Origin: Coriobacteriia bacterium
GTDB lineage: Bacteria; Actinomycetota; Coriobacteriia; Anaerosomatales; PALSA-660
DNA length: 37,262 nucleotides
NCBI GenBank assembly: GCA_025361885.1
Contig: JANYJF010000034.1
Span: 1-37,262, forward strand
Reading direction: 5' to 3'
Each line of letters starts with the position of its first letter. Within the stretch, counting starts at the first letter, position 1. Shown here piece after piece: positions 2,751-24,935 of this stretch. The position numbers were made by a program, and so were the translations under genes. The notes below the pieces were generated by a model, which was not told where the DNA came from, ran no database searches, and saw only the letters and a list, made by a program, of their open reading frames with translations.

Positions 2751-4427
2751 TTGAGCAAGCGCACTCGCACCATTCTCGCTGCGGCGCTAGCGCTCTCGCT
2801 CGTCGCTCTTGCGTTCGGAGCTGCGGGTTGCACGCCCAAGCGCGGCGGTACCGCTTCCGCCAGCGACACGCCCGTCAAGGGCGGTACGCTCTCGTACTAT
2901 GTCAACGAGCCTGCGTACATCGATCCGTACAACACGCAGGAATCCGAAGGCACCAATGTCGAGCAGTCCTTGTTCGACAGCCTCACCGCCATCAACCCCC
3001 TGACCTCCAAGCTCGAGCCCGCCGCGGCCGAGTCGTGGAAGGCCAATAGCGATGGCACCGTGTGGACGTTCAAGTTGCGCAAGGGCGCGAAGTTCCACGA
3101 CGGCACCCCCGTCGGCGCCAAGGACTTCAAGTACGCCTGGGAGCGCATCGCGAACCCCGCCACCGACCCGAAGAACCCGTCGGTCATCAGCTACCACTTG
3201 TCCCCTGTCAAGGGCTTCCAGGAGATGGCTGACGGCAAGGCCACCGATCTCACCGGCGTCAAGGTCATCGACGACCTCACGCTCGAGGTCACGCTGACCG
3301 AGTCCTTCGCCGACTTCGAGTACGTCGTGGCCCACCCGGCCCTCGCGCCGGTGCCGAAGGCCGCGGTCGAGAAGGACCCGAAGGCGTTCGCCGAGGCTCC
3401 CGTCGGCAACGGTCCCTTCAAGATGTCGGGTACGTGGAAGCACGACCAGTACATCAAGGTCGTCCGCTTCGATGGCTACTACGGCACGAAGGCGAATCTC
3501 GACGGTATCGATTTCAAGATCTTCAAGGACGAGGACACCGCATTCCGCGAGTTCGAAGCCGGCAACATCGACTTCACCTCGATCCCCACCGGCAAGATCG
3601 GCGCGAGCAAGACCAAGTACGGCGTCTCCGCCGACGGCTACACCGTCAACCCCAAGACCCAGGTCCTTCTGGGTGCTGAGACTGCTGTCTACTACATGCT
3701 CATGAACAACACCGACCCGATCCTCAAGAACCCCAAGGTGCGCGCCGCCATCTCCATGGCCATCAACCGCCAGGCGCTGTGCGACACACTGTACGAAGGC
3801 ACCCGCAAGCCGGCCACGGGCATCGTCCCGCCGGGCATCGTCGGCTTCCAGCCGAACGCCTGGGCCGCCACCAAGTACGATCTCCAGGGCGCCAAGAAGA
3901 TGCTGGCCGACGCCGGCTATCCCGGTGGCGCGGGCATCCCCGAGTTCTCCCTGTCCTTCAACACCGGCCAGGGCCACGAGAAGGTCATGGAGCTCGTCGG
4001 CTCCGACCTCGCCAAGATCGGCATCAAGACCAAGCCCGACGGTGCCGAGTGGGCGCAGTACCTCAAGCAGCTCGACGCCGGCACGTATCAGATCGGCCGC
4101 CTCGGCTGGATCGCCGACTACCCGATCTTCGACAACTTCATCAACCCGATCTTCCAGTCGAAGTCGGGCGACAACAAGTCGAAGTTCGTCGACGCATCTG
4201 TCGACTCCGCCATCACGGACGCTCGAAAGATCACCGATGGTGCCAAGCGCATCGCGGCCTACCAGGACATGGAGAAGAAGATCGGCGAGCAGACCCCGGT
4301 CGCACCGCTGACCTTCTACGCTCACCGTCACGTAGGTTCCTCGCGCGTGCACAACCTGATCTACAGCCCGATGGGTCTGGGCGCGTTCGACAAGTGCTGG
4401 ATCGTCGCTCCGGCCGCCAAGAAGTAG
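2751..4427 (+). CDS. dppA: Peptide ABC transporter substrate-binding lipoprotein (DppA/OppA family)
   Basis: This 558-residue extracytoplasmic solute-binding protein (SBP_bac_5 family) captures oligopeptides for the importer encoded downstream. An N-terminal signal of ~22 hydrophobic residues ends in FGAAGC, a lipobox-like site, so the mature protein is probably lipid-anchored at Cys. Family hallmarks include KGGTLSYYVNEPAYIDPYN near the N-terminus, WTFKLRKGAKFHDGTPVGAKDF and the C-terminal region GWIADYPIFDNF. TTG 2751 is chosen because GAGGGGAGG lies 7 bases before it; an in-frame ATG at 2718 has no such site. The chosen symbol means the family; whether it takes di- or oligopeptides cannot be read from sequence. 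Confidence 0.9.
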   Translation: MSKRTRTILAAALALSLVALAFGAAGCTPKRGGTASASDTPVKGGTLSYYVNEPAYIDPYNTQESEGTNVEQSLFDSLTAINPLTSKLEPAAAESWKANSDGTVWTFKLRKGAKFHDGTPVGAKDFKYAWERIANPATDPKNPSVISYHLSPVKGFQEMADGKATDLTGVKVIDDLTLEVTLTESFADFEYVVAHPALAPVPKAAVEKDPKAFAEAPVGNGPFKMSGTWKHDQYIKVVRFDGYYGTKANLDGIDFKIFKDEDTAFREFEAGNIDFTSIPTGKIGASKTKYGVSADGYTVNPKTQVLLGAETAVYYMLMNNTDPILKNPKVRAAISMAINRQALCDTLYEGTRKPATGIVPPGIVGFQPNAWAATKYDLQGAKKMLADAGYPGGAGIPEFSLSFNTGQGHEKVMELVGSDLAKIGIKTKPDGAEWAQYLKQLDAGTYQIGRLGWIADYPIFDNFINPIFQSKSGDNKSKFVDASVDSAITDARKITDGAKRIAAYQDMEKKIGEQTPVAPLTFYAHRHVGSSRVHNLIYSPMGLGAFDKCWIVAPAAKK

Positions 4428-4459
4428 TCTTGCGGCAGGGAGCAACTAGCGAGTAACGT

Positions 4460-4489
4460 GGCGGGGCGCCCGAACCCGGGCGCCCCGCC
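4460..4489 (+). terminator. Strong intra-operon hairpin between dppA and dppB
   Basis: A 13-base stem (left arm GGCGGGGCGCCCG) closes an AACC loop at 4473-4476. It sits between the binding-protein and permease genes with no T tract. In ABC importer operons such hairpins commonly stabilise the 5' mRNA or terminate partially, giving more binding protein than permease. Confidence 0.65.
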
Positions 4490-4538
4490 TCACGCGTGTC
4501 CCACCCATCGGATCTCTCACGACAGGCCAAGGTCAGCC

Positions 4539-5516
4539 ATGCTCAAGTACATCGCACGCCGAGTCCTCCAGGTGATCCCTGTCTTCATCGGTGTGACTCT
4601 CGTGCTGTTCCTCCTGCAAGCGGTCATTCCCGGAGACCCGGTCAAGATGATCACGGGCGAGCGGGCCATGTCGCCGGCACTGCGGCTGCAGATCATGAAG
4701 GCCAACAACCTGGACAAGCCCATCCCCGTCCAGTACGTCATCTACGTCAACAAGCTTCTCCACGGCGATCTGGGCACGTCCTACCAGCGGGGTCGCGCCG
4801 TGAGGGACATGCTCGGCGAGAAGTACCCGTACACGGTCAAGCTCGCCTTCGCCGCCATCATCATCGAGATCATCGTTGGCATCGCCGCCGGCATCATCTC
4901 TGCAGTCAAGCGGTACTCGTTCCTCGACGTTCTCGTGACGCTCTCGACATCCGTTCTCGTTTCCGTACCAGTGTTCTGGCTCGGCATGCTGCTGCAGGTG
5001 TTCTTCGGCATCCTGCTCAAACAGTGGTCGGGCGGGCAGATCTACATGCCCATCTCGGGAGCAGGAGGGCTGAGTACGGATTTCCCCGACTGGGTCTACC
5101 TGGTCCTGCCCGCCATCACATTGGCGTCGGTCTCGACGGCGTACGCGGCGCGCATCATGCGCAGTCAGCTGCTCGAGATCATGGGCGCCGATTACATCCG
5201 CACAGCACGCGCGAAGGGCCTCACCAGCCAGGCCGTGATCTGGCGGCACGCACTCAAGAATGCGCTCATCCCCGTTGTGACATTCATCGGTCTCGATCTC
5301 GGGGCGATGCTGTCCGGCGCGATACTCACCGAGACCGTGTACAACTACCCGGGCATCGGCCTCGAGATCTACCTCGCGATCGGCCGGCGCGACTGGCCCG
5401 TCGTCATGGGCGGAGTCGTCCTGGTGGTGGTCGTGGTCATGGTCATCAACCTGATAGTCGATGTCAGCTACGCATTCCTCGACCCGCGCATCCGGTATGG
5501 CGGCGCCGCCGAGTAA
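4539..5516 (+). CDS. dppB: Peptide ABC transporter permease (DppB/OppB family)
   Basis: This 325-residue inner membrane permease forms one half of the peptide channel. About six membrane helices are visible, starting with RRVLQVIPVFIGVTLVLFLL. The binding-protein-dependent transport motif that docks the ATPase is present (MGADYIRTARAKGL followed by HALKNALIPVVT). The C-terminal VDVSYAFLDPRIRYG is typical of DppB. ATG 4539 follows AAGG with good spacing. It is separated from dppA by the hairpin at 4460-4489 and followed 36 bases later by dppC. Confidence 0.93.
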   Translation: MLKYIARRVLQVIPVFIGVTLVLFLLQAVIPGDPVKMITGERAMSPALRLQIMKANNLDKPIPVQYVIYVNKLLHGDLGTSYQRGRAVRDMLGEKYPYTVKLAFAAIIIEIIVGIAAGIISAVKRYSFLDVLVTLSTSVLVSVPVFWLGMLLQVFFGILLKQWSGGQIYMPISGAGGLSTDFPDWVYLVLPAITLASVSTAYAARIMRSQLLEIMGADYIRTARAKGLTSQAVIWRHALKNALIPVVTFIGLDLGAMLSGAILTETVYNYPGIGLEIYLAIGRRDWPVVMGGVVLVVVVVMVINLIVDVSYAFLDPRIRYGGAAE

Positions 5517-5552
5517 TCCCCGTCTCATCTCTCGCACGTACGCGGAGGCACG

Positions 5553-6536
5553 ATGTCAGATCACGATCACATTCCACATGAGGCGCGGGACCGCCAGGAG
5601 ACCCTGGACGCGATCCGCGAGACCGGGCAGCCGTTCCCGCCTTCCGAGGAGTTCGAGCTTCACGCTGGTGACAGCCGCACTCTGTGGGGCGACGCGCTGC
5701 GGCGCATGCTCAAGAACAAGCTCGCGGTGGCGGCTGTCGTGTGGCTGCTGTTGATGGTGATGCTGGCCGTCTCTGCGGACCTGTGGGTGCCGCAGACCTT
5801 CGGCAGTCCCACCAAGATCGACACCACGACCATCGTCAAGCAGCGCCTGATCCCGCCTTCGATGGGGCATCCCTTCGGCACGGACGACCTGGGCCGCGAC
5901 ATCTTCGCCCGCGTCATCTACGGGGCGCGCATCTCGCTCGCCGTTGGCATCCTGGCCACAGCCATCTCGATCGTCATCGGGCTGATCATGGGCGCCCTGT
6001 CCGGCTACTACGGTGGTCTGATCGACGCCGGGATAATGCGATTGGCGGACGTCTTCTTCGCCTTCCCCTACATACTGTTCGTCGTCGCACTGATCGCAGT
6101 GCTCGGCAAGGGCTTCATCAATGTGTTCATCGCCATCGGGATCCTGGGCTGGGCGTCCATCGCCCGTGTGTTCCGAAGTTCGATCCTGTCGGTGAAGGAG
6201 AACGACTACGTTGACGCCGCGCGAGCCTTGGGCGCCAGCGACCTCCGCATCATGGCGAGGCACATCATGCCCAACGCGGTCGCTCCGATCATCGTCTACT
6301 CCACCATGTCGATCGGCGGGGCGATCCTGACCGAGGCGGCCCTGAGCTTCCTCGGAATGGGCGTGCAGCCGCCGACGCCCGCGTGGGGGCTGATGCTCAA
6401 CGACGCGCAGAACTTCATGGAGACCGCTCCTTGGATGATGATCTGGCCAGGTCTGGCCATCCTGACGACCGTACTCGCGTTCGTGCTGCTCGGTGACGGG
6501 CTCCGCGATGCGCTCGACGTGAAGATGAAGGACTAG
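5553..6536 (+). CDS. dppC: Peptide ABC transporter permease (DppC/OppC family)
   Basis: This 327-residue second permease subunit pairs with DppB. A soluble N-terminal segment of ~50 residues precedes TRTLWGDALRRMLKNKLAVA-like OppC_N sequence and six membrane helices. The family signature HPFGTDDLGRDIFARVIYGARISL is split around residues ~107-130. The ATPase-docking motif is ENDYVDAARALGASDLRIMARHIMPN. GGAGG (5544-5548) lies 4 bases before ATG 5553. dppD begins 4 bases after the stop, so the two are translated in tight succession. Confidence 0.93.
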   Translation: MSDHDHIPHEARDRQETLDAIRETGQPFPPSEEFELHAGDSRTLWGDALRRMLKNKLAVAAVVWLLLMVMLAVSADLWVPQTFGSPTKIDTTTIVKQRLIPPSMGHPFGTDDLGRDIFARVIYGARISLAVGILATAISIVIGLIMGALSGYYGGLIDAGIMRLADVFFAFPYILFVVALIAVLGKGFINVFIAIGILGWASIARVFRSSILSVKENDYVDAARALGASDLRIMARHIMPNAVAPIIVYSTMSIGGAILTEAALSFLGMGVQPPTPAWGLMLNDAQNFMETAPWMMIWPGLAILTTVLAFVLLGDGLRDALDVKMKD

Positions 6537-6540
6537 CGCG

Positions 6541-7557
6541 ATGACGATGCTCCTTGAGGTAGACGATCTCCGCATGTACTTCCACACCCGCGACGGGATC
6601 GTGAAGGCCGTCGACGGGGTCAGCTTCACACTGGATCGCGGCCAGACGCTCGGCGTGGTGGGAGAGTCGGGCTCAGGCAAGTCGGTCACCGCCATGACCA
6701 TCATGCAGCTCATCCCGATGCCCCCGGGCAAGGTGGAGTCGGGCCGCGTGCTGTTCAAAGGCGCCGACATGCTCGAGATGAGCGAGGACCAGGTCCGGAA
6801 GCTGCGAGGCAACCGCATCGCGATGATCTTCCAAGACCCCATGACCTCACTCAACCCGGTCTACAGGATCGGACAGCAGATCGGGGAGTCGCTGCGGCTG
6901 CACAAGGGCATGGACCGCAAGGCCGCGGCCGCCCGTGCCGTGGAGCTGCTGACGCTCGTCGGCATCCCGCACTCGGACGAGCGGACGAAGGACTACCCGC
7001 ACCAGTTCTCCGGCGGCATGCGGCAGCGCGCCATGATCGCGATGGCGCTCGCGTGCGATCCCGACATCCTGATAGCTGACGAGCCGACCACCGCGCTCGA
7101 CGTCACCATCCAGGCGCAGATCATCGAGCTTATGACCGAGCTGCAGAAGCGCACGGGCTCGGCGATCATCATGATCACACATGATCTGGGCGTCGTCGCC
7201 GACATCGCCGACAAGGTGCTGGTCATGTACGCGGGCAAGCCGGTCGAGTATGGCGTGAAAGACGACGTCTACTACCGCCCGCTCCACCCGTACACGTGGG
7301 GCTTGCTGGACAGCCTTCCGCGCCACGACGTGAACGAGAAGACGGCGCTGTGCCCGATCCAGGGTCAGCCCCCCAGCCTCATCAACGTACCCTCCGGATG
7401 CGCGTTCCACCCCCGGTGTCCATACGCGACCTCGAAGTGCCGCAGCGAAGTGCCCGCGCTGCGTGACATCGGCGGCGAGCACTTCGCTGCGTGCCACTAC
7501 GCCGGGGACCCCGGCTTCGAGCGCGGAGTCATCGAGTGCGCGGGAGTGGGTGCGTGA
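6541..7557 (+). CDS. dppD: Peptide ABC transporter ATP-binding protein (DppD/OppD family)
   Basis: This 338-residue cytoplasmic ATPase powers peptide import. Walker A is GESGSGKS, the ABC signature [15 protein letters not shown], and Walker [12 protein letters not shown], followed by the H-loop ITHDLG. The C-terminal oligopeptide-transporter extension contains cysteines in [15 protein letters not shown], which in this family can bind an iron-sulfur cluster. ATG 6541 is used; ATG 6547 is an alternative. The stop overlaps the start of dppF by one base. Confidence 0.93.
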
Positions 7558-8606
7558 TGAGCGAACTTCTCAAGGTGGAGGGTCTGGTCAAGCACTTTCC
7601 GGTCGAGAAGGGCCTGCTCCTGGGCCGCTTCGCGGGCCACGTGTCGGCCGTCGAGAACGTGTCGTTCTCGGTGTCGAAGGGCGAGACACTCGGAGTCGTG
7701 GGCGAGTCCGGATGCGGTAAGTCGACGACCGGCCGCTGCATCATGCGGCTGACAGAGCCGACGGCCGGCTCCATCACCTTCGACGGAACGGATGTGCGCG
7801 CGTTGCGCGGCGCGGCGCTCAAGGCGTTCAGGCGCGACGTCCAGATCATCTTCCAGGACCCCTATGCGAGCCTGAACCCGCGCATGACCATCGGCGAGAT
7901 AATCATGGAGCCGTTGCAGATACACCGCATCGGCACAGCAGCGGTGCAGAAGACCAAGGCCCGCGACCTGCTGGACCTGGTCGGGCTCAATCCAGAGCAC
8001 ATCAACCGGTACCCGCACGAGTTCTCCGGCGGCCAGAGACAGCGCATCGGCGTCGCGCGTGCTCTTGCGCTCGAGCCGAAGCTCATCGTGTGTGACGAGC
8101 CGGTGTCGGCACTCGATGTCTCGATCCAGGCGCAGGTCATCAATCTGCTCGAGGACCTGCAGAAGCGCCTTGGGCTGACGTACCTGTTCATCGCGCACGA
8201 CCTGTCCGTCGTGCGGCACATCTCCGACCACGTGGCCGTCATGTACCTCGGCAAGATCGTCGAGATCTCAGACTGGGTCGCGCTCTACGACCAGCCGAAC
8301 CACCCGTACACGCAGTCGCTGCTCTCGGCGGTGCCGGTGCCCGATCCTGAGAAGATGCGGTGCCGCGAGCGCATCATCCTGCAGGGCGACGTTCCCTCGC
8401 CGATCAACCCGCCTACGGGCTGCCGGTTCCACACACGTTGTCCGATCGCGCAGTTCCCGATCTGCTCCGAGAGCGAGCCCGAACTGCGGGAGGTCGCACC
8501 GGGCCACCGGGCGGCGTGCCACTTCGCGAAGGCGCACCCGATCCCGGTCGAGGCGATGCGTCCGGCGGTCTGCTCACCCGACGAGACGGTCGGCATCCGG
8601 GCGTAG
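7557..8606 (+). CDS. dppF: Peptide ABC transporter ATP-binding protein (DppF/OppF family)
   Basis: This 349-residue second ATPase heterodimerises with DppD. It shows Walker A GESGCGKS, signature [15 protein letters not shown], Walker [13 protein letters not shown] and the C-terminal [16 protein letters not shown] extension. The frame is open upstream to 7491, but ATG 7557 overlaps the dppD stop in TGATG and gives the normal DppF N-terminus ([13 protein letters not shown]), so it is preferred. It closes the dppABCDF operon; tRNA-Leu follows 69 bases later with its own promoter. Confidence 0.93.
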
Positions 8607-8675: not shown

Positions 8676-8761
8676 GCGCGAGTGGTGGAATGGCAGACAC
8701 GCAAGCTTGAGGTGCTTGTGGGCGCAAGCCCGTGGGGGTTCAAATCCCCCCTCGCGCACCA
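8676..8761 (+). tRNA. tRNA-Leu (anticodon GAG)
   Basis: An 86-base class II tRNA. The acceptor stem is GCGCGAG with CTCGCGC, then discriminator A and an encoded CCA. The anticodon stem CAAGC/GCTTG holds the loop TTGAGGT (anticodon GAG, reading CUC/CUU). The long variable arm contains GGGC-GCAA-GCCC, and the T loop is GGTTCAAAT. Confidence 0.96.
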
Positions 8762-8903: not shown

Positions 8904-9830
8904 ATGCGGGTGTATAGGCGGGTGACGGTCAGGCTCGATGTCGGCGCCGGCGCCGTCCGGAGGATCGCCGCGGTCGCCTTCATCACTGTGCTGCTGCTCT
9001 CGACCGTGATCGGGTCCGCGCTCCCGGAGAGCGCATCGGCGTGGGCCAACGGCCCCGACCACGGCAACGGCTACGGGACCCACGACTGGATCCTCGACGA
9101 GGCCATGACGATCGCGCGGACCCGCGGCGGCGGCGCTTGGGTCGAGCGGGGGACGGCCTTGGCCGCCACCGACGACCCCGACACGCAACTCCATGACTTC
9201 GTGAACCACGTCTATCAGACGACGGGTCATGTGTACGGGTCGGCGCCCGGGCGGGTCCAGGCGCTGTTCGACCGCACCGTCGCGCAGCTGCGCGGTGGAG
9301 ACCGGGAAGGCGCCAGTGTGACGTTGGGACTGCTGGCGCACTACTACGGCGATATCTGCAACCCGCTGCACACCGACCAGGTCGCCGCCGAACAGCGGAT
9401 CCACTCCAAGTACGAGACCCGCGTGCAGCGAGACACTTCGCTGCCGGGGCAGAACGGCGCCTGGGTCGTGCCGACTCGGGAGACCCCGACCTCGGACGAG
9501 TCCGCGCGCGCCATAGTGGCAGCGGCGGGCGCCCACGTCTCGTACGCGGAGCTGGTGGCTGACTACAGCGCCAACGGCTACGACGCGAGGGTACGGGTCA
9601 TCACCGCCGAGTCCCTGTCGAGTGCGGCCAACGGTGTGGCCGCGATCATCGACGACATCGGGCGGCAGGCGGGGGTCCAGGTGGTCGAGGCGACCGAGGC
9701 CAGCGGATCGGTCGACGCTCCCGTCACAGGGATGAGCGGGCCGCGTGCCCCTGCCGTGTGGGGCTTGGCGCTGCTGCTGCTGGCGGTGCTCCTCGGGTTC
9801 GCGGTGCTCGTGCGATCCCGCAAGACCTGA
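8904..9830 (+). CDS. Secreted, C-terminally anchored zinc phospholipase C / S1-P1 nuclease-like protein
   Basis: A ~308-residue exported metal-dependent hydrolase of the zinc phospholipase C/S1-P1 nuclease fold. The signal peptide ends in ESASA, so cleavage would leave Trp as residue 1; in this superfamily the N-terminal Trp itself binds zinc. Other likely ligands are in GTHDWILDEA, QLHDFVNH and LAHYYGDICNPLHTDQ. A C-terminal helix (VWGLALLLLAVLLGFAVLV) followed by RSRKT suggests a membrane anchor with the catalytic domain outside. The upstream extension of this frame overlaps tRNA-Leu, so the start is downstream; ATG 8904 is preferred, with ATG 8886 or GTG 8922 possible. Substrate (phospholipid or nucleic acid) cannot be decided. 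Confidence 0.75.
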   Translation: MRVYRRVTVRLDVGAGAVRRIAAVAFITVLLLSTVIGSALPESASAWANGPDHGNGYGTHDWILDEAMTIARTRGGGAWVERGTALAATDDPDTQLHDFVNHVYQTTGHVYGSAPGRVQALFDRTVAQLRGGDREGASVTLGLLAHYYGDICNPLHTDQVAAEQRIHSKYETRVQRDTSLPGQNGAWVVPTRETPTSDESARAIVAAAGAHVSYAELVADYSANGYDARVRVITAESLSSAANGVAAIIDDIGRQAGVQVVEATEASGSVDAPVTGMSGPRAPAVWGLALLLLAVLLGFAVLVRSRKT

Positions 9831-9911: not shown

Positions 9912-11084
9912 GTGGTCGATCGCGCACAAGCGGCAGGACGCAGGGTCCTCGAAGTCATCAGGCCGGCCATCGGCGGGATGAAGGGGCAGATGCTGCAGGT
10001 CGCGCGGGGGCTGCGCGCGGCCGGCTGGACGGTCGAGGTCGCATGTCCGTCTCCGTCCGACGTCGCGGAGGCTGCGGTCGCTGACGGATTCGCCGTCGTG
10101 CCGATCGAGCTCGTGGGGCCGCTCCACGCGGTGAAGGACACCGCATGTGTCCTTGCGCTCTCCCGCATCATGCGCGGAGGCGGCTTCGACGCCGTCCACG
10201 CGCACGGGTTCAAGGCAGGGCTCGTCGCGCGGCTGGCGGCGCGGCGGGCGGGCGGCATTCCGGCGATCGTGACCGTTCACAACCACGTCCTGTACCGCGA
10301 TGTCTCGGCGTTCACGAAGTGGCGCTACATCACCGTCGAAAGATGGCTCGCCCGCGGCGGACGCACGGCGAGGCTTATCACCGTCTCGGACTCCCTACGA
10401 GATGAGCTGATCACCGAGTACGGCATCGACGCGGCGATGATCACCACGGTGCACAACGGGCTGGATCTGGCCCCCTTCCTCGCGGTGGGCGACCGCAAGG
10501 CTGCGCGCGACAGGTACGGACTGCCGCCGCGGGCACTGGTCTTCGGCCTTGCGGCCCGCTTCGCGCCACAGAAGGCGATGGACGTGCTCGTGGCTACGGC
10601 GCCCATCGTCCTGGGAGCCCATCCGGAGGCTCTTTACCTTCTGGCGGGCGACGGTCCGCTGCTCGAGGAGGCGAGGTCCGCCGCGAAGGCGACGGGCTTC
10701 GGGGACCGCATCTCGTTCCCTGGCTTCGAACGCGACGTCCCCGGGCTGCTCGCGGCTGTGGACGTCTACGTGTCTTCCGCGTTGTCGGAGGGATTGCCGC
10801 TCGCCACCATCGAGGCGATGGCCGCCGGGCTGCCCGTCGCATCCACGCGGGCGGGCGGGACACCGGAAGTGGTCGCTGACGGCCGGACGGGGCTGCTCGT
10901 CGAATCGGGGGATGCAGCAGACTTGGCCGCTGCCATGCTGCGACTGGCCGATGACGCCGACCTGCGCGCTCGCTTCGGTGCCGCGGGGCGCCGACGGGCC
11001 GTGGCCGAGTTCACCGAAGAGCGCATGATCGAGTGCACCGTGAAGATATTCGAGGAGGTCCTGTGCTCGTCTTCGAACGAGTAG
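9912..11084 (+). CDS. GT4-type glycosyltransferase
   Basis: A 390-residue GT-B fold glycosyltransferase of family 4, which transfers a sugar from an activated donor. The N-terminal acceptor domain begins VLEVIRPAIGGMKGQMLQVARGL. The donor domain contains FAPQKAMDVLVATAPIV, YLLAGDGPL and the EX7E motif (Glu293 and Glu301 in SEGLPLATIEAMAAGLPVAS). GTG 9912 follows GGAGGGTGG. The gene overlaps the next one by 22 bases, so it is probably translationally coupled to the radical SAM pair. Acceptor and sugar are unknown; a role in cell-surface glycans or in modifying the product of the downstream genes are both possible. Confidence 0.85.
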   Translation: MVDRAQAAGRRVLEVIRPAIGGMKGQMLQVARGLRAAGWTVEVACPSPSDVAEAAVADGFAVVPIELVGPLHAVKDTACVLALSRIMRGGGFDAVHAHGFKAGLVARLAARRAGGIPAIVTVHNHVLYRDVSAFTKWRYITVERWLARGGRTARLITVSDSLRDELITEYGIDAAMITTVHNGLDLAPFLAVGDRKAARDRYGLPPRALVFGLAARFAPQKAMDVLVATAPIVLGAHPEALYLLAGDGPLLEEARSAAKATGFGDRISFPGFERDVPGLLAAVDVYVSSALSEGLPLATIEAMAAGLPVASTRAGGTPEVVADGRTGLLVESGDAADLAAAMLRLADDADLRARFGAAGRRRAVAEFTEERMIECTVKIFEEVLCSSSNE

Positions 11085-11941
11085 CTATCGGCTCAGGTCA
11101 CGGCATCCGCTGCACGCGCTGCCATCCCGACAACGAGTCCCCGGTCTACCATCCCGCCGCCCAGGTGCTGGCTGCGGTGCAGGCCGTCGTCGACACGTGG
11201 CATGGCGGTCCCGGGCCCAACGTGACGCTGACGGGCCCGGAGCCCTTCGCGCACCCCGAACTGCCGGGGATGGTCGCGGGAGCGATAGATGCCGGCGTCC
11301 ACCGCTTGCGGCTGGAGGTCGACGGGGGCGCCTTCGCGCGGCCCGGCAACGCCGAGGGCGCGTTGGGGGCCGGTGTGAGGCACGTGCAAGTGACGCTTCT
11401 CGGCGGGACGGAGGGGGTGCACGACGCTTTGGCCGGCGGCCCCGGGGCGTTCGACGCGGCCACCACCGGGATGGCCGCTCTTGACGATGCCATCCGCACA
11501 GCAGGTGTCGCGGCCATCGTCACGGTGCTCGTGCCGGTGTGCCGACACAACGTGGCGGACCTGCCGGCGGCGGTCGGAGCGGCGGTACAGGCCGGGGCGG
11601 CCTCGGTGCTGCTCCGGCTCGAGGACGGCGGCATCGACCTCGAGGCGGCGGCCCCATGGATCACCGCCGCGTGCGACACCGGCGTCGTCAACGGCGTGTG
11701 GGTCGAGGTCGAAGGCGTGCCCTTCTGCGTGCTGCCGGCGTACGACCTGCACCTGGCGTCGACCGTGCGCGCGACCGGGGGCGCCAAGCCCGCGGCCGTG
11801 TGCCACGCGTGTCCTCTCGATCGGGTGTGTTCCGGCGGTCCCGAAGGTGCCTCCGCCGAGACCATGTCGGCCTTCGCGCCCCCTGCGGGCGCGGAGCGCC
11901 TTGCGCAAGCGGTGTCGCGTTCCAGGGGAGGTGCCCGATGA
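11063..11941 (+). CDS. Radical-SAM-like protein with degenerate cluster motif and SPASM-like C-terminus
   Basis: A ~292-residue protein that reads like a radical SAM enzyme but lacks one cluster cysteine. The usual CX3CX2C appears as HGIRCTRCH: Cys17 and Cys20 are kept, His13 occupies the first position. LTGPEPFAHPEL corresponds to the GGEP region, and the stretch from VTLLGGTEGVHDALAGG to PGAFDAATTGM resembles the middle of radical SAM/SPASM enzymes. The C-terminus has VCHACPLDRVCSGGP, like an auxiliary cluster site. GTG 11063 follows AGGAGG by 4 bases and lies inside the glycosyltransferase end. It overlaps the next gene by 4 bases (ATGA). Whether it holds a cluster, has lost catalysis, or acts as partner to the next enzyme is unknown. 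Confidence 0.6.
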   Translation: MLVFERVAIGSGHGIRCTRCHPDNESPVYHPAAQVLAAVQAVVDTWHGGPGPNVTLTGPEPFAHPELPGMVAGAIDAGVHRLRLEVDGGAFARPGNAEGALGAGVRHVQVTLLGGTEGVHDALAGGPGAFDAATTGMAALDDAIRTAGVAAIVTVLVPVCRHNVADLPAAVGAAVQAGAASVLLRLEDGGIDLEAAAPWITAACDTGVVNGVWVEVEGVPFCVLPAYDLHLASTVRATGGAKPAAVCHACPLDRVCSGGPEGASAETMSAFAPPAGAERLAQAVSRSRGGAR

Positions 11942-13212
11942 CCGACCGCACGCGCCCACTGCACGTCGCCCTCCTCGCCCTGAACTCTTCCGGCTACCAG
12001 TCGCTCGCGCTCGGCTATCTGCGCGCGTACGCACAGGCTGATGATCGGCTCAAAGGCAAGGCCGCATTCACCACTCTCGACCTCACGGTCGACTTGGACC
12101 CGTGGTGGGTGGCGTGGCGCGTCCTGGGCATGGAGCCGGACGTTCTGGGCATCTCCGTCACCTGCTGGAATGCGCGCGCGGTCTACGAGGTCTGCCGCAT
12201 AGTCGCGGAGGTCCGGCCCGAGACGGTCATCGTGCTCGGTGGGCCGGAGGTCGGACCGATCGCCGAAGACGTGCTTCGCGAGCGACCCGCTGTACACGCT
12301 GTTGTGCGAGGCGAAGGCGAGCGGACGTTCGCTGAACTGCTGCACGCCTTCGCCAGCGGAGGAAAAGCGTGGCGGGTCGATGGCGTGACCACCCGCAAGC
12401 TCGACGAGATCGTCTCGGCGCCCGACCGCGCACTCATCGAGAACCTCGACGTGGTCCCTTCGCCCTACCTCACCGGCGTGATGTCGCCCATCGAGGGCGG
12501 CGCCTACCTGGAGACGTACCGCGGCTGTCCGCATCGTTGCGGCTACTGCTTCGAGGGGAAGGGCTACGGACGCATCCGCTCGTTCTCGCATGAGCGTATC
12601 GCGGCCGAGATAGCCGCTGTGGCCGGCGCTCCGCAGATCCGTACGTTCAGCTTCATCGACCCGGTCTTCAACCTGACGGGCGAGCGGCTGACGTGGCTGG
12701 CGGACACGCTCGAGCCATACGCGGCCTCAGGCGTGCGCCTGCACACCATCGAGGTCGACATCGAGCGGATCGACGAGGCCGCGGCCCGCGAGCTCAAGCG
12801 CGCCGGCGTGGCCTCCGTCGAGACCGGCCCGCAGACGACCGGCGAGGCCGCCTTGTCCGCATGCCGCCGCACGTTCGACGCCGAGAGGTTCGCGGACGGC
12901 GTGGCCGCCTGTCGTCGCGCGGGGATCTCCGTGGAGTGCGACCTGATCGTCGGACTCCCGGGAGACGACGCACACTCCTTCCTGGCCGGGTTGCGCTTCG
13001 CGATCGGGCTCGATCCGGGGATCGTGCAGTCCTCGACCCTGCACGTGCTCCCCGGCACCGACCTGTGGATGCGCGCGCCGGAGCTGGGGCTGTCGTTCGA
13101 TCCCGAGCCGCCGCACGAGATCATCGCGACACCTGACGTCGGTTACCGCGACCTGCGCCGCGCCGAGGTACTGGCGGTTTCCGTCCAGGCCGCGTATCGG
13201 GCGAGGGTGTGA
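11938..13212 (+). CDS. Cobalamin-binding-domain radical SAM protein
   Basis: A 424-residue class B-type radical SAM enzyme. Residues ~1-130 form a Rossmann-like B12-binding domain (LALNSSGYQSLALGYLRAYA, GISVTCWNA, VIVLGGPEVGPIAE) without an obvious DXHXXG motif. The radical SAM core follows with an intact CX3CX2C (Cys197, Cys201, Cys204 in RGCPHRCGYCFEGKG) and later SAM-barrel elements (IEVDIERID, GVASVETGPQTTG, CDLIVGLPGDD). The family does methylations, ring contractions and other radical rearrangements. ATG 11938 has AGGGGAGGT upstream and overlaps the previous stop. Its substrate is not evident; neighbours suggest a pathway with glycosyl transfer and transamination. Confidence 0.85.
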   Translation: MTDRTRPLHVALLALNSSGYQSLALGYLRAYAQADDRLKGKAAFTTLDLTVDLDPWWVAWRVLGMEPDVLGISVTCWNARAVYEVCRIVAEVRPETVIVLGGPEVGPIAEDVLRERPAVHAVVRGEGERTFAELLHAFASGGKAWRVDGVTTRKLDEIVSAPDRALIENLDVVPSPYLTGVMSPIEGGAYLETYRGCPHRCGYCFEGKGYGRIRSFSHERIAAEIAAVAGAPQIRTFSFIDPVFNLTGERLTWLADTLEPYAASGVRLHTIEVDIERIDEAAARELKRAGVASVETGPQTTGEAALSACRRTFDAERFADGVAACRRAGISVECDLIVGLPGDDAHSFLAGLRFAIGLDPGIVQSSTLHVLPGTDLWMRAPELGLSFDPEPPHEIIATPDVGYRDLRRAEVLAVSVQAAYRARV

Positions 13213-13217
13213 CTCGC

Positions 13218-14378
13218 ATGCGGCTCGCACCATTCGCGATCGAGCGGTACTTCGCCAGATTCGAGTTCGACCTGCCGTACCTGCTGTCGAGCTCCGACTG
13301 CGAGGCGCTGACACTCTCGGAGACCCTCGCGATGGCGGACCCCGAGTGCCGGGCCATGTGGGACGCGCTCACGCTCGGCTATACGGAGAGTCCCGGCCTG
13401 AGCCTCCTTCGGGAGGAGATCGCAGGCATGTACGACACGGTCGCGGCCGAGCACGTCATCGAGGTCGTGCCCGAGGAGGGCATCTTTCTGGCGATGCATG
13501 CGATCCTCGGGCCCGGAGACCATGTCGTGACGGGCTTCCCCGCCTACCAGTCGCTCTACTCGGTGGCCGAAGCGGTGGGTTGCGAGGTGAGCCGATGGGA
13601 GCCTCACGAGGCCTCCGGCTGGCGTTTCCATGTGGCGGACCTGCGCCGCATGATCCGCCCGACGACCAGGCTCGTTGTCCTCAACTCTCCTCACAATCCC
13701 ACGGGCTTCCTGCCTTCCCGCGATGAGTTCGCCGAGATCGTGGACGTGGCGAGTGAGGTCGGGGCGTGGTTGTTCAGCGACGAGATGTACCGATATCTGG
13801 AGCGCGACCCGTCCCGGCGGCTGCCCGCCGCCGTCGACCTGTACGACCGGGCCGTGAGCCTGTCCGGTATGTCGAAGGCGTTCTCGATGCCCGGAGCGCG
13901 CGTGGGCTGGCTGGCCGTGCGCGACCCGACGCTCATGGCGCGCGTCGCGGAACTCAAGGACTACACGACGATCTGTGCCGCGGCGCCGTCGGAGGTGCTC
14001 GCGCTCATCGGCCTGCGCAACCGGGATGCGATCGCCGCCCGCAACCTGGCGATCATCGCCCGCAACCTTGCGGCGATCGAGGAGCTGGCGGCACGTCGCG
14101 CCGACATCCTGCGCTGGATCTCGCCTGTCGCCGGCAGCGTCGGCCTGTTGCGAGTCGACATCGAGGGAGGCGCCACCGCGATGTGCGAGCACCTCGCGGT
14201 CGAGGCGGGCGTCATGCTGCTGCCCTCGACCGTCTTCGACCATGGCGACTCGCACGTGAGACTCGGCTTCGGCCGATCGGCCTTCGCCGAGGGCCTCGCC
14301 GTCTTCTCGAGATGGCTCGACGACGCCTATCCGGTCGGGACCGACGACCGACCTTCCTCGAATGGAGCGATGAGATGA
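13218..14378 (+). CDS. PLP-dependent aminotransferase, class I/II fold (possibly capreomycidine-synthase-like)
   Basis: A ~386-residue fold-type I PLP enzyme. The PLP lysine is Lys220 in SGMSKAFSMPGARVGW; NSPHNPTG and the PLP aspartate region FSDEMYRYLE are present. The N-terminus (APFAIERYFARFEFDLPYLLS, then SSDCEAL) reminds me of the VioD/capreomycidine synthase branch rather than ordinary AspC enzymes, but this is recall and not an alignment. ATG 13218 is preferred because GCGAGGG lies 10 bases before it; GTG 13209 would overlap the previous stop. The gene overlaps the next aminotransferase by 4 bases. Its substrate is unknown. Confidence 0.8.
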   Translation: MRLAPFAIERYFARFEFDLPYLLSSSDCEALTLSETLAMADPECRAMWDALTLGYTESPGLSLLREEIAGMYDTVAAEHVIEVVPEEGIFLAMHAILGPGDHVVTGFPAYQSLYSVAEAVGCEVSRWEPHEASGWRFHVADLRRMIRPTTRLVVLNSPHNPTGFLPSRDEFAEIVDVASEVGAWLFSDEMYRYLERDPSRRLPAAVDLYDRAVSLSGMSKAFSMPGARVGWLAVRDPTLMARVAELKDYTTICAAAPSEVLALIGLRNRDAIAARNLAIIARNLAAIEELAARRADILRWISPVAGSVGLLRVDIEGGATAMCEHLAVEAGVMLLPSTVFDHGDSHVRLGFGRSAFAEGLAVFSRWLDDAYPVGTDDRPSSNGAMR

Positions 14379-15544
14379 CCGACCGAGTCTCCGACCGCGT
14401 GGGCCGCCTGCGCCCGTTCGTAGTCATGGACGTGCAGGCCCGCGCGAAGGCCCTCGAGGCCCAGGGCCGCGATATCGTGCACTTGGAGATCGGCGATCCC
14501 GACTTCAGCACGCCCGAGGTGATCAAGCGCGCTGCCGAGGCGTCGATGGACGCGGGGGAGACAGGCTACTCGATGTCGCTGGGCCGTCTCGACCTCCGCC
14601 AGGCAGTGTCGGACCACTACCGGGCCAAGTACGGCGTGAGCGTCGAGCCCTGCGACATCGTGGTCACCCAAGGAACGTCTCCGGCGATGCTGCTCCTGTT
14701 CGGATCGCTCCTCGATCCGGGAGACGAGGTCATCATCCCCGACCCGTGCTATCCGGCGTATCCCAACTACATCACGTTCCTGGGCGGGACACCCGTCCCC
14801 GTGCGCGTTCGCGCCGAGGAGGGCTTCCGTTTCCGCCCCGGAGAGGTCCGGGCCGCGGTCACGCCGCGCACGCGGGCCATCATGGTCAACTCGCCGGCCA
14901 ATCCGATGGGGACCGTGCTTGGCGAGAAGGACCTCGTGGAACTGGCGTCGATCGCCGAGGAGACCGGCATCTGGATCGCCTCCGACGAGATCTACCACGG
15001 ACTCAACTTCAGCGACGAGCGCGACCACTCGATCCTGGAGTACACATCACGCGCCTTCGTCCTGAACGGGTTCTCGAAGGTCTACGCCATGACGGGTTGG
15101 CGCCTGGGCTACTTGATCGCGCCGAAGGACTTCGTGCGGCCGGCGGAGATCATCCAGCAGAACTTCTTCCTATGCGCGAACCAGTTCGTGCAGGCGGCGG
15201 GCGTCGTAGCACTGACGCAGGCCGGCGAAGACGTGGAGACGATGCGCCGCAGGTACGATGAGCGTCGTCGGTACCTGATACCCGCTCTGCGCGAGCTCGG
15301 TCTGCGCATCGACGTGGAGCCGACCGGGGCGTTCTATGTGTTCGCCGACGCCCGTGCATGGGGGAGCGATTCGCTCGCGCTGTCGGGCCGACTGCTGGAG
15401 GAGGCGGGTGTGGCCTGTGCGCCCGGCATCGATTTCGGTCCCGGAGGCGAGGGCTTCCTGAGGTTCAGTTACGCGACGTCGCTCGAGAGGCTCCACGAGG
15501 GCGTTGAGCGGCTCAGGGCCTGGTCGGCGTCGCAGCAGGGCTGA
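14375..15544 (+). CDS. PLP-dependent aminotransferase, class I
   Basis: A 389-residue class I aminotransferase resembling aspartate/aromatic-type enzymes. Visible motifs are HLEIGDPDFSTP near the N-terminus, GYSMSLGRLDLRQAV, NSPANPMG, the PLP-contacting SDEIYHGL, and the Schiff-base lysine Lys235 in NGFSKVYAMTGWRLGY. ATG 14375 overlaps the previous stop (ATGA), with GGAG 7 bases upstream. It ends the five-gene coupled run that begins at 9912. Having two different aminotransferases back to back suggests sequential or distinct amino transfers in one pathway. Individual substrate cannot be deduced. Confidence 0.88.
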   Translation: MTDRVSDRVGRLRPFVVMDVQARAKALEAQGRDIVHLEIGDPDFSTPEVIKRAAEASMDAGETGYSMSLGRLDLRQAVSDHYRAKYGVSVEPCDIVVTQGTSPAMLLLFGSLLDPGDEVIIPDPCYPAYPNYITFLGGTPVPVRVRAEEGFRFRPGEVRAAVTPRTRAIMVNSPANPMGTVLGEKDLVELASIAEETGIWIASDEIYHGLNFSDERDHSILEYTSRAFVLNGFSKVYAMTGWRLGYLIAPKDFVRPAEIIQQNFFLCANQFVQAAGVVALTQAGEDVETMRRRYDERRRYLIPALRELGLRIDVEPTGAFYVFADARAWGSDSLALSGRLLEEAGVACAPGIDFGPGGEGFLRFSYATSLERLHEGVERLRAWSASQQG

Positions 15545-15648: not shown

Positions 15649-16836
15649 ATGTCAGCAGTCTTCTCGCACTCGCGCATCTCGGCCTTCGAAACGTGTCCGA
15701 AGAAGTACGAGTGTGCCTATATCACGAGACCGCCCAAGGGGCCCACCACCGTCGAGGCCTTCATGGGGAGCCGCGCCCATGAAGCACTTGAGTGGCTGTA
15801 TCGCGAGGCCGGCGTCGGCCATGTCCCGGACGAGGCAGCGTTGGTCGCCATGTATCACGAACAGTGGGACTCCGAGTGGTCCGAGGACATCGTGGTCGTG
15901 CGGGCGGAACGCGCGCCGGAGGACTACCGCGCCGTCGGCGAGCGTTCGCTTCGGGACTACCACCGTCGCCACGCTCCGTTCGATCGGGGCCGCACGATCG
16001 GTCTGGAGATGCGCATCGAGCTGGCGTTGGACGACACCGGCGACCACATGCTCATGGGGTACCTGGACCGGCTGGTCAAGGTGGCCGACGGCGTGTGGGA
16101 GATCCATGACTACAAGACCGGCAACACCCTTGCGACGCAGCAGCAGGCGGATGCCGATCGCCAGCTCGCTCTCTACCAGATCGCCGTGCAGGAGGCGTAT
16201 CCCGACGCCCGGGACATCACGCTGGTGTGGCACTACCTCGCCTTCGACGCCGAGGTCTCATCCCGCCGCACGCCGGAGCAGCTCGAGGCCTTGCGAGCCG
16301 AGACTCTGGCCGCGGTCCTGAGGATCGAGAGTGCCGACGAGTTCCCGACCAAGGTCTGCCGCCTGTGCGACTGGTGCGAATACCGAGCGTCGTGCCCGGC
16401 GTGGGTGCAGGTTGACGCCGTCACCGCCGTCCCGCGCGATGCCAGGGCGAACGAGCCGCTGGCCGACCTCGTCGACCAGTACATCGCAGCCAGCGAAGCC
16501 GCATCGGAAGCCGCCCGGGAGCGCGACCGTCTTCGCGACGCCATCGTTGCGCGGTCCCGTGAGGACGGGCTGGACCAGGTCGCCGGCACCGACCATGTGG
16601 TGAAGGTGTTCAGGTACGACAGCCTCAAGCTGCCTGACGACAGGGATCCGCGCCGGGGAGCGCTGGAGTCGGTGCTGCGGGCGGCAGGCGAGTGGGAGCG
16701 CTTCGCACAACTGAACGGGTTCGCGCTGTCCAAGGCTCTCGAAGCGCGGAACCTGCCGACGGAGCTTGCGTCCGAGGTACTGCGCTATGTCACAATCAGC
16801 CCGGCTGCGAAGCTGTATCCCCGACGACGCACATGA
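15649..16836 (+). CDS. PD-(D/E)XK nuclease family protein (RecB/AddB-type with Fe-S cluster site)
   Basis: A 395-residue RecB-family nuclease. It begins FSHSRISAFETCPKKYEC, the typical opening of RecB/AddB-like nucleases. The active site appears as Asp140 (GYLDRL), Asp154 and Lys156 (IHDYKTG), then QLALYQIAV. Four cysteines suited to a 4Fe-4S cluster are an N-terminal one (Cys16 or Cys22) and Cys237, Cys240, Cys243 and/or Cys249 in VCRLCDWCEYRASC. The C-terminal ~130 residues include a charged helical stretch (ASEAASEAARERDRLRD). AAGGAGGAACC precedes ATG 15649. No helicase partner or cas genes are nearby, so it is probably a stand-alone DNA repair or processing nuclease. Confidence 0.85.
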   Translation: MSAVFSHSRISAFETCPKKYECAYITRPPKGPTTVEAFMGSRAHEALEWLYREAGVGHVPDEAALVAMYHEQWDSEWSEDIVVVRAERAPEDYRAVGERSLRDYHRRHAPFDRGRTIGLEMRIELALDDTGDHMLMGYLDRLVKVADGVWEIHDYKTGNTLATQQQADADRQLALYQIAVQEAYPDARDITLVWHYLAFDAEVSSRRTPEQLEALRAETLAAVLRIESADEFPTKVCRLCDWCEYRASCPAWVQVDAVTAVPRDARANEPLADLVDQYIAASEAASEAARERDRLRDAIVARSREDGLDQVAGTDHVVKVFRYDSLKLPDDRDPRRGALESVLRAAGEWERFAQLNGFALSKALEARNLPTELASEVLRYVTISPAAKLYPRRRT

Positions 16837-18186: not shown

Positions 18187-19425
18187 TCAGGACTCGGAAA
18201 GTTCCCTTATCGCGGATCGAGCGCCGTCAGCGAGCGCCGTTATCACGGTTGGACGGTCTCCCCAAGCCGGCAGGACCTCGAGCTTGACGTGGGTGCCGAG
18301 GAGCGACTCCTCCGCTGCGCCTCGAAGGTCGATCAAGGTGCCGAGAGTCTCCACTGGCATCGCCGCGGGGACGACCAACACTCGTCGGGCACCGAACGCC
18401 ACCAGATGCCGGACGGCCTCGGGCACGCCCTGTTCCTGCCAGTCCAGCCAGCCCAATCGCACCATCCCGGACCCGAAGCCTCCGTCGAGAAGAAGCGCGC
18501 GCACTCTCTGGGCGAAGTAGGTCTCCTGCTCGCTGCCCGCCGGATGAGTTCGGTCCCATTGCCACGGCTGGCCGTGTCCCACGAGCACGACGCCCGTGGA
18601 CGAGCGATCGGCTTCCGGCACCGATGCGAGCACCGCCTCAGCCACGGCCCGCGCGATGTCGGAGGAGCCCCAAAGCGGTGCCGCGTACGCCACGCGCATG
18701 CCATCGGCGCCGAGCCCCAGTGTGTCGACGGAGCGCTTGGCCCGATCGAGGTACAGCGAGTCGGCGATCCCCAGCGGCACCACGGCGACGTGGTGATATC
18801 CATCGGCAGCCGCCGCGGCAACGGCGTCGTCGAGCCGCTCCGGGGGGTCGAGCCATGCGACCCGGACATCGGACTGCGTGGTCTCGGCCTCAAGGACCCT
18901 GGACAGCTTGTCCGCGATCGACCGTGCACCCGCTCGTGCGGGAGAGCCGCCCACAGATGCGTATCGGGACTTCTCCGACAGGTACATGAGCGTTCGAGTC
19001 GCTTCCGGCGGCAGGGGTACCCCGGTCTCTTCCAGATCCAGGAATCCGGCCGTCAAGACCGACGGGTCGTAGCGCTCCGGCTCTCCCCCTGCCAGCACGA
19101 TCACCGCGATACGGCCATTGTCCGCGCCCATCCCTCGGCTGGCGGCGGCCGACCGGGGTGCCGTCCACACCGGCAGCAGGGCCGCGGCCAAAGCGAACCC
19201 GCCGAGTGCGACAGCCACCGCGATGAACCCCGCCACGATCATGGTATCGGCCCGCGCGTTCGTGCGGGCCATGGCGCCGAGCGAGATCACCGTCAGGACG
19301 AGGGACGCGATCGCGACCGCGAGCGCGGCGATGTCTCGGCCGCGCGGCAGCACCAAGGCCCCGCACGCCCCCGCCCCGGCGAGTACGCTGCCGGCCAGCA
19401 GGCTCACCCATATCCACGCCGACAT
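18187..19425 (-). CDS. Membrane-anchored CbiX/ferrochelatase-fold protein
   Basis: A 412-residue protein with three N-terminal hydrophobic segments (roughly residues 3-27, 33-55, 62-88), then a long domain resembling two chelatase-type Rossmann repeats. The first half has HHVAVVPLGIADSLYLDRAK; the second has VVLVGHGQPWQWDR, where His matches the metal-inserting histidine of CbiX/SirB/HemH, then GARRVLVVPAAMPVETLGTL. Chelatases insert Fe, Co or Ni into tetrapyrroles, but fusion to membrane helices is unusual and no tetrapyrrole gene is near, so activity is unproven. A strong ribosome site (GGGAGGAGG, 19428-19436 on the opposite strand) supports ATG at 19425. It is convergent with the PHP gene and divergent from trxA. 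Confidence 0.6.
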   Translation of the reverse strand: MSAWIWVSLLAGSVLAGAGACGALVLPRGRDIAALAVAIASLVLTVISLGAMARTNARADTMIVAGFIAVAVALGGFALAAALLPVWTAPRSAAASRGMGADNGRIAVIVLAGGEPERYDPSVLTAGFLDLEETGVPLPPEATRTLMYLSEKSRYASVGGSPARAGARSIADKLSRVLEAETTQSDVRVAWLDPPERLDDAVAAAAADGYHHVAVVPLGIADSLYLDRAKRSVDTLGLGADGMRVAYAAPLWGSSDIARAVAEAVLASVPEADRSSTGVVLVGHGQPWQWDRTHPAGSEQETYFAQRVRALLLDGGFGSGMVRLGWLDWQEQGVPEAVRHLVAFGARRVLVVPAAMPVETLGTLIDLRGAAEESLLGTHVKLEVLPAWGDRPTVITALADGARSAIRELSES

Positions 19426-21916: not shown

Positions 21917-21933
21917 CTGGTACCGAATTTGCT
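21917..21933 (+). promoter_or_regulatory. Sigma-54-type (-24/-12) promoter upstream of rpoN
   Basis: CTGGTACCGAATTTGCT has GG (21919-21920) and GC (21931-21932) separated by exactly 10 bases. Against the consensus TGGCAC-N5-TTGCW it has one mismatch (T for C at 21921). Transcription would start near 21943, 40 bases before rpoN. This points to autoregulation of sigma-54. Confidence 0.6.
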
Positions 21934-21982
21934 TTCTCCGTGCGATCCGAGCACGGGGCCGACGCTCGAAGAAGGCGTGACC

Positions 21983-23377
21983 ATGGAACTCGGACAGCGC
22001 CCGGAACTGCGGCAGAAGTTCACGCTGTCCCCGCAGGTCTACCAAGGACTCAGCATCCTCGCGATGCCTGTCGCCGAGCTGCAGGTGCTCGTCGAGACCG
22101 AGCTGTTGGAGAACCCGGTCCTGGAGGTCGAGGAGTTCGAGGACGAGCCCGCCGAGCCCGAGGACGAGCGGGCCGATGTTGCGGACGACGAGCGCGCGTG
22201 GGACGAATGGCTCGACCAGTATGCCGAGCTCGACAACCTCGACCCCATCATCCCTCGCGACCCGAACGCGGAGGACATCAACACCGAGGAATTCGTCGGC
22301 GGGTATCTGAGTTTCGACGAGTACCTCCTCGAGCAGCTCGGCATGCTCGACTTGGATGACGCGACCCGACGCGCCGCGCAGGCGATCGTCGGGTCTTTGG
22401 ACGGCGACGGGTTCCTCGTGACCCCGCTCGACGAGGTGGCGGCGATCGCCGGCGTCTCACCCACTGTGGCGGACCGCGCTCTGGCCGTGGTGCAGCAGCT
22501 CGACCCGCCCGGCGTCGGAGCACGCGACCTCGCGGAGGCTCTGCGCATCCAGCGTGACTACCTGGGCATCGACGAGCCCCTTCTCGAAGACATCATCTGC
22601 GACCATCTCGACGACATCGCAGCCAACCACTTCCGGAAGGTGGCCCGGAAGCTACAGGTCGACGAGGCCGAGATCCGGCGCCTCGTCGAGATCCTGCGGC
22701 AGCTCAACCCCCGTCCTGCCGGCGCCTTCTCGCCCGGGCCGTCTCCCGGGTACGTGGTGCCCGATGTGACGATCCGGCGATTCGGCGACGACTGGGTCAT
22801 CACACCCAACAGCGAAGCCGTGCCGACCTTGCGCGTCAGCTCGCGCTACCGCACGATGCTGCGCGGCGGCTCGGGCGCCGATGCCGAGACCGTGCGCTAT
22901 CTCAAGGACAAGATCCGCTCGGCGGAGACGTTCATAAAGAACGTGGATCGCCGCAAGGACACCGTGAGTCGCATCACGAAGATCATCCTCGAGGTCCAGA
23001 ACGAGTTCTTCGAAGACGGCAAAGGATCCCTGCGCCCCTTGAGGCTCGAGGACGTGGCCGTCGAGATCGGCGTGCACCTCTCGACAGTGAGCCGGGGCGT
23101 CACGGGCAAGTACATGGCCACACCCTATGGGATGTTCGAGCTCAAGCACTTCTTCTCGGGTGGATACCGGACTTCGACGGGCATGGACGTCGCCGCCACC
23201 ACAGTCAAGGAGACGCTTCGCGGCATGCTGACCAGCGAGGACCCGCTCCATCCGCTGTCGGACCAGAAGCTCGCTGAGATGCTTTCGCACAAGGGTATCC
23301 CGGTGGCGCGCCGTACTGTGGCGAAGTACCGCGAGGAGATGGGCATCGAGCCATCCTGGGCGAGGAAGCGCCGCTGA
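21983..23377 (+). CDS. rpoN: RNA polymerase sigma-54 factor
   Basis: A 464-residue sigma-54 that directs polymerase to -24/-12 promoters and needs an ATP-dependent activator. Region I is the Gln/Leu-rich N-terminus (LRQKFTLSPQVYQGLSILAMPVAELQVLVE), quoted here as LSPQVYQGLSIL onward; an acidic region II follows (about 45-110). The core-binding and HTH regions include DPPGVGARDL, HLSTVSRGV and KYMATPYGMFELKHFFSGG split over residues ~375-400. The RpoN box ARRTVAKYRE is at 442-451. ATG 21983 follows GAAGG. The stop overlaps the histidine kinase start, so sigma factor, sensor and activator form one operon. A complete rpoN is unusual for Actinobacteria. Confidence 0.96.
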   Translation: MELGQRPELRQKFTLSPQVYQGLSILAMPVAELQVLVETELLENPVLEVEEFEDEPAEPEDERADVADDERAWDEWLDQYAELDNLDPIIPRDPNAEDINTEEFVGGYLSFDEYLLEQLGMLDLDDATRRAAQAIVGSLDGDGFLVTPLDEVAAIAGVSPTVADRALAVVQQLDPPGVGARDLAEALRIQRDYLGIDEPLLEDIICDHLDDIAANHFRKVARKLQVDEAEIRRLVEILRQLNPRPAGAFSPGPSPGYVVPDVTIRRFGDDWVITPNSEAVPTLRVSSRYRTMLRGGSGADAETVRYLKDKIRSAETFIKNVDRRKDTVSRITKIILEVQNEFFEDGKGSLRPLRLEDVAVEIGVHLSTVSRGVTGKYMATPYGMFELKHFFSGGYRTSTGMDVAATTVKETLRGMLTSEDPLHPLSDQKLAEMLSHKGIPVARRTVAKYREEMGIEPSWARKRR

Positions 23378-24903: not shown

Positions 24904-24935
24904 ATGGCGAGTCAAACAAGGAGGCTGAGCGGACC

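Follow-up and report, generated by a model that had tools for sequence, protein, structure and literature searches.

What do the five overlapping genes at positions 9912-15544 of contig JANYJF010000034.1 encode, and which of them belong together? The contig stems from a Coriobacteriia bacterium (GenBank assembly GCA_025361885.1; 1.65 Mb in 70 contigs), and its positions 1 to 37,262, referred to below as the window, were analysed here. The genes code for a glycosyltransferase of the GT4 type, a protein derived from radical S-adenosylmethionine (SAM) enzymes that we call the companion, a cobalamin (B12)-dependent radical SAM enzyme and two pyridoxal phosphate (PLP) enzymes, termed AT1 and AT2. 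A preliminary description of the sequence had proposed that all five genes serve a single product. In our comparison the conserved core consists of the companion and the B12 enzyme, whose genes lie side by side in the same orientation in all 48 non-redundant pairs, and GT4, AT1 and AT2 are lineage-dependent neighbours outside this core. We regard it as an evenly balanced proposition that the pair forms a B12 radical SAM (methyl)transferase of two proteins, the second radical SAM subunit of which has turned into a partner that is no longer catalytic and probably binds a metal. The five co-oriented genes are the following.

9912-11084, plus strand: GT4-type glycosyltransferase (Pfam Glycos_transf_1 and Glyco_transf_4, 1e-31 to 1e-33).
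11063-11941, plus strand: companion, radical-SAM-derived, 292 residues; start codon GTG at 11063, 22-base overlap with the GT4 gene.
11938-13212, plus strand: B12-dependent radical SAM enzyme, 424 residues, TokK/CysS/KedN5-like; ATGA junction, 4-base overlap with the companion gene.
13209-14378, plus strand: AT1, PLP enzyme of the PRK07324, GntC and VioD-like group; GTGA junction, 4-base overlap with the B12 enzyme gene.
14375-15544, plus strand: AT2, class I aminotransferase of the aspartate/aromatic type; ATGA junction, 4-base overlap with the AT1 gene.

The distance between the domains of the companion and the B12 enzyme is -17 to +41 bases in 47 of the 48 pairs and 209 bases in the remaining one. 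Of 300 genomes of the class, 64 contain the companion: 59 of the 69 sampled from the order to which the window belongs and five from other orders. In at least three of the ten companion-negative genomes of the order, the contig ends at or before the expected companion site. The Actinomycetota are the one phylum in which the pair was sampled in depth. In the phylum sample of 397 genomes, the family of the B12 enzyme is clearly set apart: nine genomes score at least about 440 bits and the next best one 187 bits. The companion is encoded in each of these nine as well. Major clades are shared between the companion and B12 enzyme trees, e.g. the copies from genomes G129, G075 and G103 group together, which fits joint inheritance or transfer. 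In both trees, pairs from families f17 and f20 of other orders (loci L048-L050) are nested beside or among the f5 pairs of the order, which suggests a joint transfer of the pair; f17 also keeps an Opp-type transporter and EamA as neighbours despite this placement. Carriage by viruses or plasmids was considered and rejected: no relative was found in viral contigs, and one distant match to the B12 enzyme (30%) lies on a Treponema plasmid.

The conserved motifs and other notable residues of the two proteins are located as follows.

11111-11122, plus strand: CxxC of the companion (Cys17, Cys20), the two remaining cluster cysteines, from the alignment census.
11540-11548, plus strand: CxH of the companion (Cys160, His162), from the census and the predicted strand position.
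11726-11830, plus strand: SPASM-like tail cysteines of the companion (C222, C247, C250, C256), from alignments.
12166-12168, plus strand: Trp77 of the B12 enzyme, invariant and aligned with Trp76 of TokK, from alignments.
12526-12549, plus strand: CX3CX2C motif of the B12 enzyme (C197, C201, C204), invariant, from the alignment.

The B12 enzyme matches the B12-binding domain PF02310 with 49.3 bits (cut-off 32.1), and a Radical_SAM domain was also found. Its cluster motif CPHRCGYC is intact, the three cysteines being invariant in 16 sequences. The closest solved structures found by profile comparison are CysS and TokK, which also rank first for the fold model with template modelling (TM) scores of 0.76-0.80, and the best NCBIfam model is KedN5 (NF033712; 167 bits, cut-off 700). 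The residue of TokK that corresponds to Trp77, with the numbering counted from the printed alignment, lies below the cobalt (PMC13331322). Taken together, the profile, fold and family matches and Trp77 point to methylcobalamin-dependent C-methyl transfer as the likeliest chemistry.

The companion matches the Pfam Radical_SAM model with 27.1 bits, the cut-off being 29.5 bits. A structural model based on six sequences matches the radical SAM folds of BlsE, DesII, SkfB and MoaA in a Foldseek search. As the preliminary description had recognised, the companion is SPASM-like and has lost a cluster cysteine: the sequence at the cluster motif (GSGHGIRCTRC) lacks the first cysteine of CX3CX2C, and the tail contains SPASM-like cysteines. 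Ligand residues were counted in 52 companions, 48 from Coriobacteriia and four from another class, of which 36 genomes were sampled. In all 47 Coriobacteriia companions with a complete N-terminus the first cluster cysteine is absent and CxxC is kept; in the whole census CxxC is present in 51 sequences, the remaining one being truncated. CxH at positions 160 and 162 is found in all 48 Coriobacteriia companions and in none of the four relatives from the other class, all of which have the full three-cysteine CX3CX2C motif; one of these has the cysteine and a glutamate in place of the histidine. In the structural model strand 152-159 is immediately succeeded by C160, and the loop behind the first strand contains CxxC, which would place C160 and CxxC at the same end of the barrel. 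In the companion of G301, a single genome from a third class, the whole CX3CX2C loop is gone and CxH is absent, while the SPASM-like tail is kept; its gene overlaps a B12 enzyme gene with an intact motif, which is cut by the contig end. The tail, with four cysteines in the companion of the window, is present in 13 of the 48 pairs and missing in 35, which fits a single loss in the tree of the companion. Selenocysteine encoded by the in-frame TGA of the companion gene was considered and rejected, as this TGA is the normal stop codon and the extension behind it overlies the start of the B12 enzyme gene in another frame.

For four close pairs, the dN/dS values of 0.15-0.25 for the companion and 0.09-0.15 for the B12 enzyme indicate that both genes are under purifying selection. 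These values bear on the idea of a companion in decay, left as a relic next to a B12 enzyme that still works. A relic would account for the roughly twofold faster evolution of the companion (median end branch 0.5 versus 0.22), for the loss of the cluster cysteine and for the loss of the tail in most genomes. However, its dN/dS values argue against decay, as do the intact reading frames, the constant adjacency to the B12 enzyme gene and 11 positions that are invariant in 24 diverse companions, C17, C20, C160 and H162 among them. A relic is thus disfavoured and appears highly improbable.

The four relatives that keep the canonical CX3CX2C motif next to the same B12 partner suggest that the ancestral pair probably consisted of two active radical SAM enzymes. 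They also speak for the principal rival of our reading, according to which the companion has retained radical SAM activity, with C17, C20 and C160 (or H162) holding a [4Fe-4S] cluster whose open iron binds SAM, and the two enzymes of the pair perform one radical step after the other. The position of C160 after strand 152-159 in the model, at the barrel end where the cluster loop is found, is in line with this rival as well. To our knowledge, there is no radical SAM enzyme with such a ligand set. Furthermore, the pair is kept in G301 although the whole loop is missing there, and the short companions have also lost the tail for the auxiliary cluster. Overall, we consider an active companion unlikely.

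For the reading favoured here, a two-protein enzyme with a non-catalytic second subunit, the following mechanism is proposed. The B12 enzyme would be a methylcobalamin-dependent C-methyltransferase that holds its cobalamin in the manner of TokK and CysS, with Trp77 under the cobalt. The companion of the Coriobacteriia would descend from a SPASM-type radical SAM enzyme that lost the three-cysteine SAM cluster motif, and its C17, C20, C160 and H162 most likely hold a metal site, either an Fe-S cluster or zinc. It would form a physical complex with the B12 enzyme as an obligatory non-catalytic partner contributing to substrate positioning, complex stability or electron delivery. In the lineage of G301 the companion would have lost the cluster motif altogether. 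A more specific version, which we put forward tentatively and hold for less probable than the general one, is a two-component B12 radical SAM enzyme of anaerobic Actinomycetota whose second subunit was disarmed at least twice independently, once through replacement of the SAM-binding cluster by a metal site of four residues (CxxC/CxH), which would support the B12 enzyme as an electron relay or structurally. The B12 radical SAM enzymes described so far are for the most part single proteins. If the proposal is correct, intact, re-liganded and loop-deleted partners beside the same B12 enzyme constitute a natural experiment on the conversion of a radical enzyme into a non-catalytic partner, and the pair points to a widely conserved modification in a little-studied order of anaerobic bacteria.

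Several points weigh against this reading. The C-terminal region present in TokK and CysS is absent from the B12 enzyme, which with 424 instead of 645-681 residues is 220-260 residues shorter, and its score remains far under the KedN5 cut-off. In view of its length and this score the protein is not assigned to the KedN5 subfamily, and with the C-terminal region missing and the score that low, methyl transfer is less than certain, and the enzyme may instead carry out a reaction like that of BchE or AprD4. The structural model of the companion is only of moderate quality, with a mean predicted local distance difference test (pLDDT) value of 69.9. The mirror-tree correlation between companion and B12 enzyme, 0.67 and after correction for AT2 as a proxy of the species tree 0.40, is modest, i.e. 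supportive but not strong. The switch from three cysteines to CxxC and CxH maps to one event on the tree and not to many. Thus, the perfect correlation of the motifs counts only once, and its weight comes from the later conservation of these residues. Finally, no conserved pathway neighbour accompanies the pair everywhere in the sampled loci.

The pair may act on a remote substrate or on a protein. One possibility of this kind is a maturation similar to that of ribosomally synthesized and post-translationally modified peptides (RiPPs), in which the pair would modify a peptide or protein and the companion would recognise the substrate. The tail of the companion resembles that of SPASM maturases, and sactipeptide enzymes, SkfB and SuiB among them, are found among the closest fold matches of the companion. 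On the other hand, no conserved small open reading frame was found upstream of 36 pairs, the upstream side being the only one searched; the matches that recurred there seem to be neighbouring genes read in antisense or in another frame, and frames derived from tRNAs. A RiPP-like role therefore appears improbable.

A joint pathway of all five genes would lead to a modified amino sugar, an amino acid or a small natural product. In its favour, inspection of the sequence showed that consecutive genes overlap at every junction (22, 4, 4 and 4 bases), which makes co-expression in this genome likely, and all five are probably co-transcribed. The preliminary description had given the same overlaps except for the junction between the B12 enzyme gene and AT1, where its value of about 0 is replaced by 4 bases if GTG is the start codon of AT1; the alternative start, ATG at 13218, would leave a gap of 5 bases. 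Its domain assignments, GT4, a B12 radical SAM enzyme, a SPASM-like companion and two aminotransferases, were borne out by domain searches. An Rfam scan of the window returned only tRNAs and no cobalamin riboswitch. AT1 and AT2 both match Pfam Aminotran_1_2. With 201.6 bits in this match, AT2 is an ordinary class I aminotransferase by sequence and lies below every equivalog cut-off; AT1 does not reach the cut-offs of the equivalogs for GntC/VioD-like PLP cyclases either (234 versus 415 and 217 versus 391 bits).

The fetched loci usually begin with the transporter, in some cases followed by a sensor gene, and continue with companion, B12 enzyme, AT2, PHP and ferrochelatase-like gene; among the loci of the order, 34 extend far enough to show what follows the B12 enzyme gene, and in 30 of them it is directly AT2. 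GT4 lies directly 5' of the companion in five relatives from the family (55-64% identity) and was not found beside the pair in the remaining fetched loci, i.e. outside its own family. The order GT4, companion, B12 enzyme, AT2 is thus conserved within the family, as the idea of a joint pathway would require, and the recurrence of these four genes in relatives goes beyond chance. AT1, in contrast, was not seen in the other genomes sampled from the order, its nearest relatives within the class having 30-37% identity; its position between the B12 enzyme gene and AT2 was observed in this genome only, which marks it as a genome-specific insertion. AT2 and the pair are separable in both directions. 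Flanked by Opp transporter or sensor genes on one side and by the PHP/ferrochelatase-like genes on the other, AT2 occupies a syntenic site of its own both in genomes in which no pair was detected (G030 and G096) and in genomes that have the pair on another contig (G103 and G138). Conversely, the pair occurs without AT2 as second copies in G129 and G075 as well as in other orders of the class and in other classes, where AT1 and GT4 are missing, too. Of the two observations which the preliminary description had named as speaking against a joint system, adjacency confined to this genome was hence found for AT1, and a separate conserved context for AT2. As a conserved function, a pathway of five genes is largely refuted, and we rejected it as a dedicated conserved unit since the gene set is not conserved together across the sampled loci; a common product of all five genes seems about as improbable as RiPP-like maturation.

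Further observations concern the neighbours of individual pairs. Tailed pairs without AT2 in G103 (L060:12147-14750) and G075 (L061:10271-12524) lie near NifX-like genes and also near paired genes for MinD/Mrp-like ATPases, which were identified by eye. In G301 (L184:978-3144) the gene of a family-2-like glycosyltransferase overlaps the companion start, at the place of GT4 in the family of the window. The presence of a glycosyltransferase beside the pair in both lineages may be a coincidence or reflect a link to glycans.

Upstream of the five genes, the window contains a five-gene Opp-type dipeptide ABC transporter (2616-8606), which has a syntenic place 5' of the pair throughout the order as well as in f17, followed by tRNA-Leu (8676-8761) and, just 5' of the cluster, by a gene with a weak match to zinc-dependent phospholipase C below the cut-off (8904-9830). 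Directly 3' of AT2 lies a gene for a PD-(D/E)XK nuclease of the RecB/Cas4-like type (15649-16836), which has the same position in the family and in G144. Downstream, there are also genes for a PHP hydrolase and, on the minus strand, a ferrochelatase/CbiX-like protein of 412 residues with weak Pfam scores (18187-19425), kept at the site in 30 loci, after which come thioredoxin, DUF302-like and EamA genes. A sigma-54 factor gene, one for a PAS histidine kinase and one for a sigma-54 response regulator follow directly on each other (21929-26285), all overlapping or nearly touching, and a sensor of the HAMP/GAF/SpoIIE phosphatase type with 1090 residues is encoded at 28010-31282. A sensor of another type, MASE3/PAS/GAF/SpoIIE, precedes the pair in 16 loci, mostly in divergent orientation.

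The preliminary description had found the arrangement unlike any known pathway, and in agreement with this no described counterpart was found in the open-access literature, nor was a matching account of B12 enzymes that have a degenerate or pseudo radical SAM protein as partner. When compared with known systems, the B12 enzyme shares with TokK, CysS and KedN5 the architecture of B12-binding and radical SAM domains, the CX3CX2C motif and the tryptophan at the position of Trp76. In contrast to these enzymes, it has a constant neighbour gene and no recognisable antibiotic cluster around it. The radical SAM diol dehydratase AprD4 resembles it in size and in fold over most of its length (TM 0.66-0.72), with a much weaker fold E-value than TokK and CysS. 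The partner of AprD4, AprD3, is a reductase and no radical SAM relative. AT1 has its best family matches among GntC, VioD-like PLP cyclases and PRK07324, but it stays below all cut-offs and lacks a guanitoxin or viomycin context, whereas AT2 is, as judged from its sequence, an ordinary member of the class I aspartate/aromatic aminotransferases. For the companion, the curated haloarchaeal family TIGR04347 of pseudo-SAM/SPASM, SPASM-like proteins gives a weak match of 30.9 bits, far under its cut-off of 525 bits. With the SPASM/twitch enzymes BlsE, DesII, SkfB, AhbD and PqqE the companion shares the barrel fold, weak family matches and, in the family of the window, the SPASM-like cysteine tail. 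It differs from them by the absence of the first cluster cysteine, the presence of CxH and the loss of the tail in most of its relatives.

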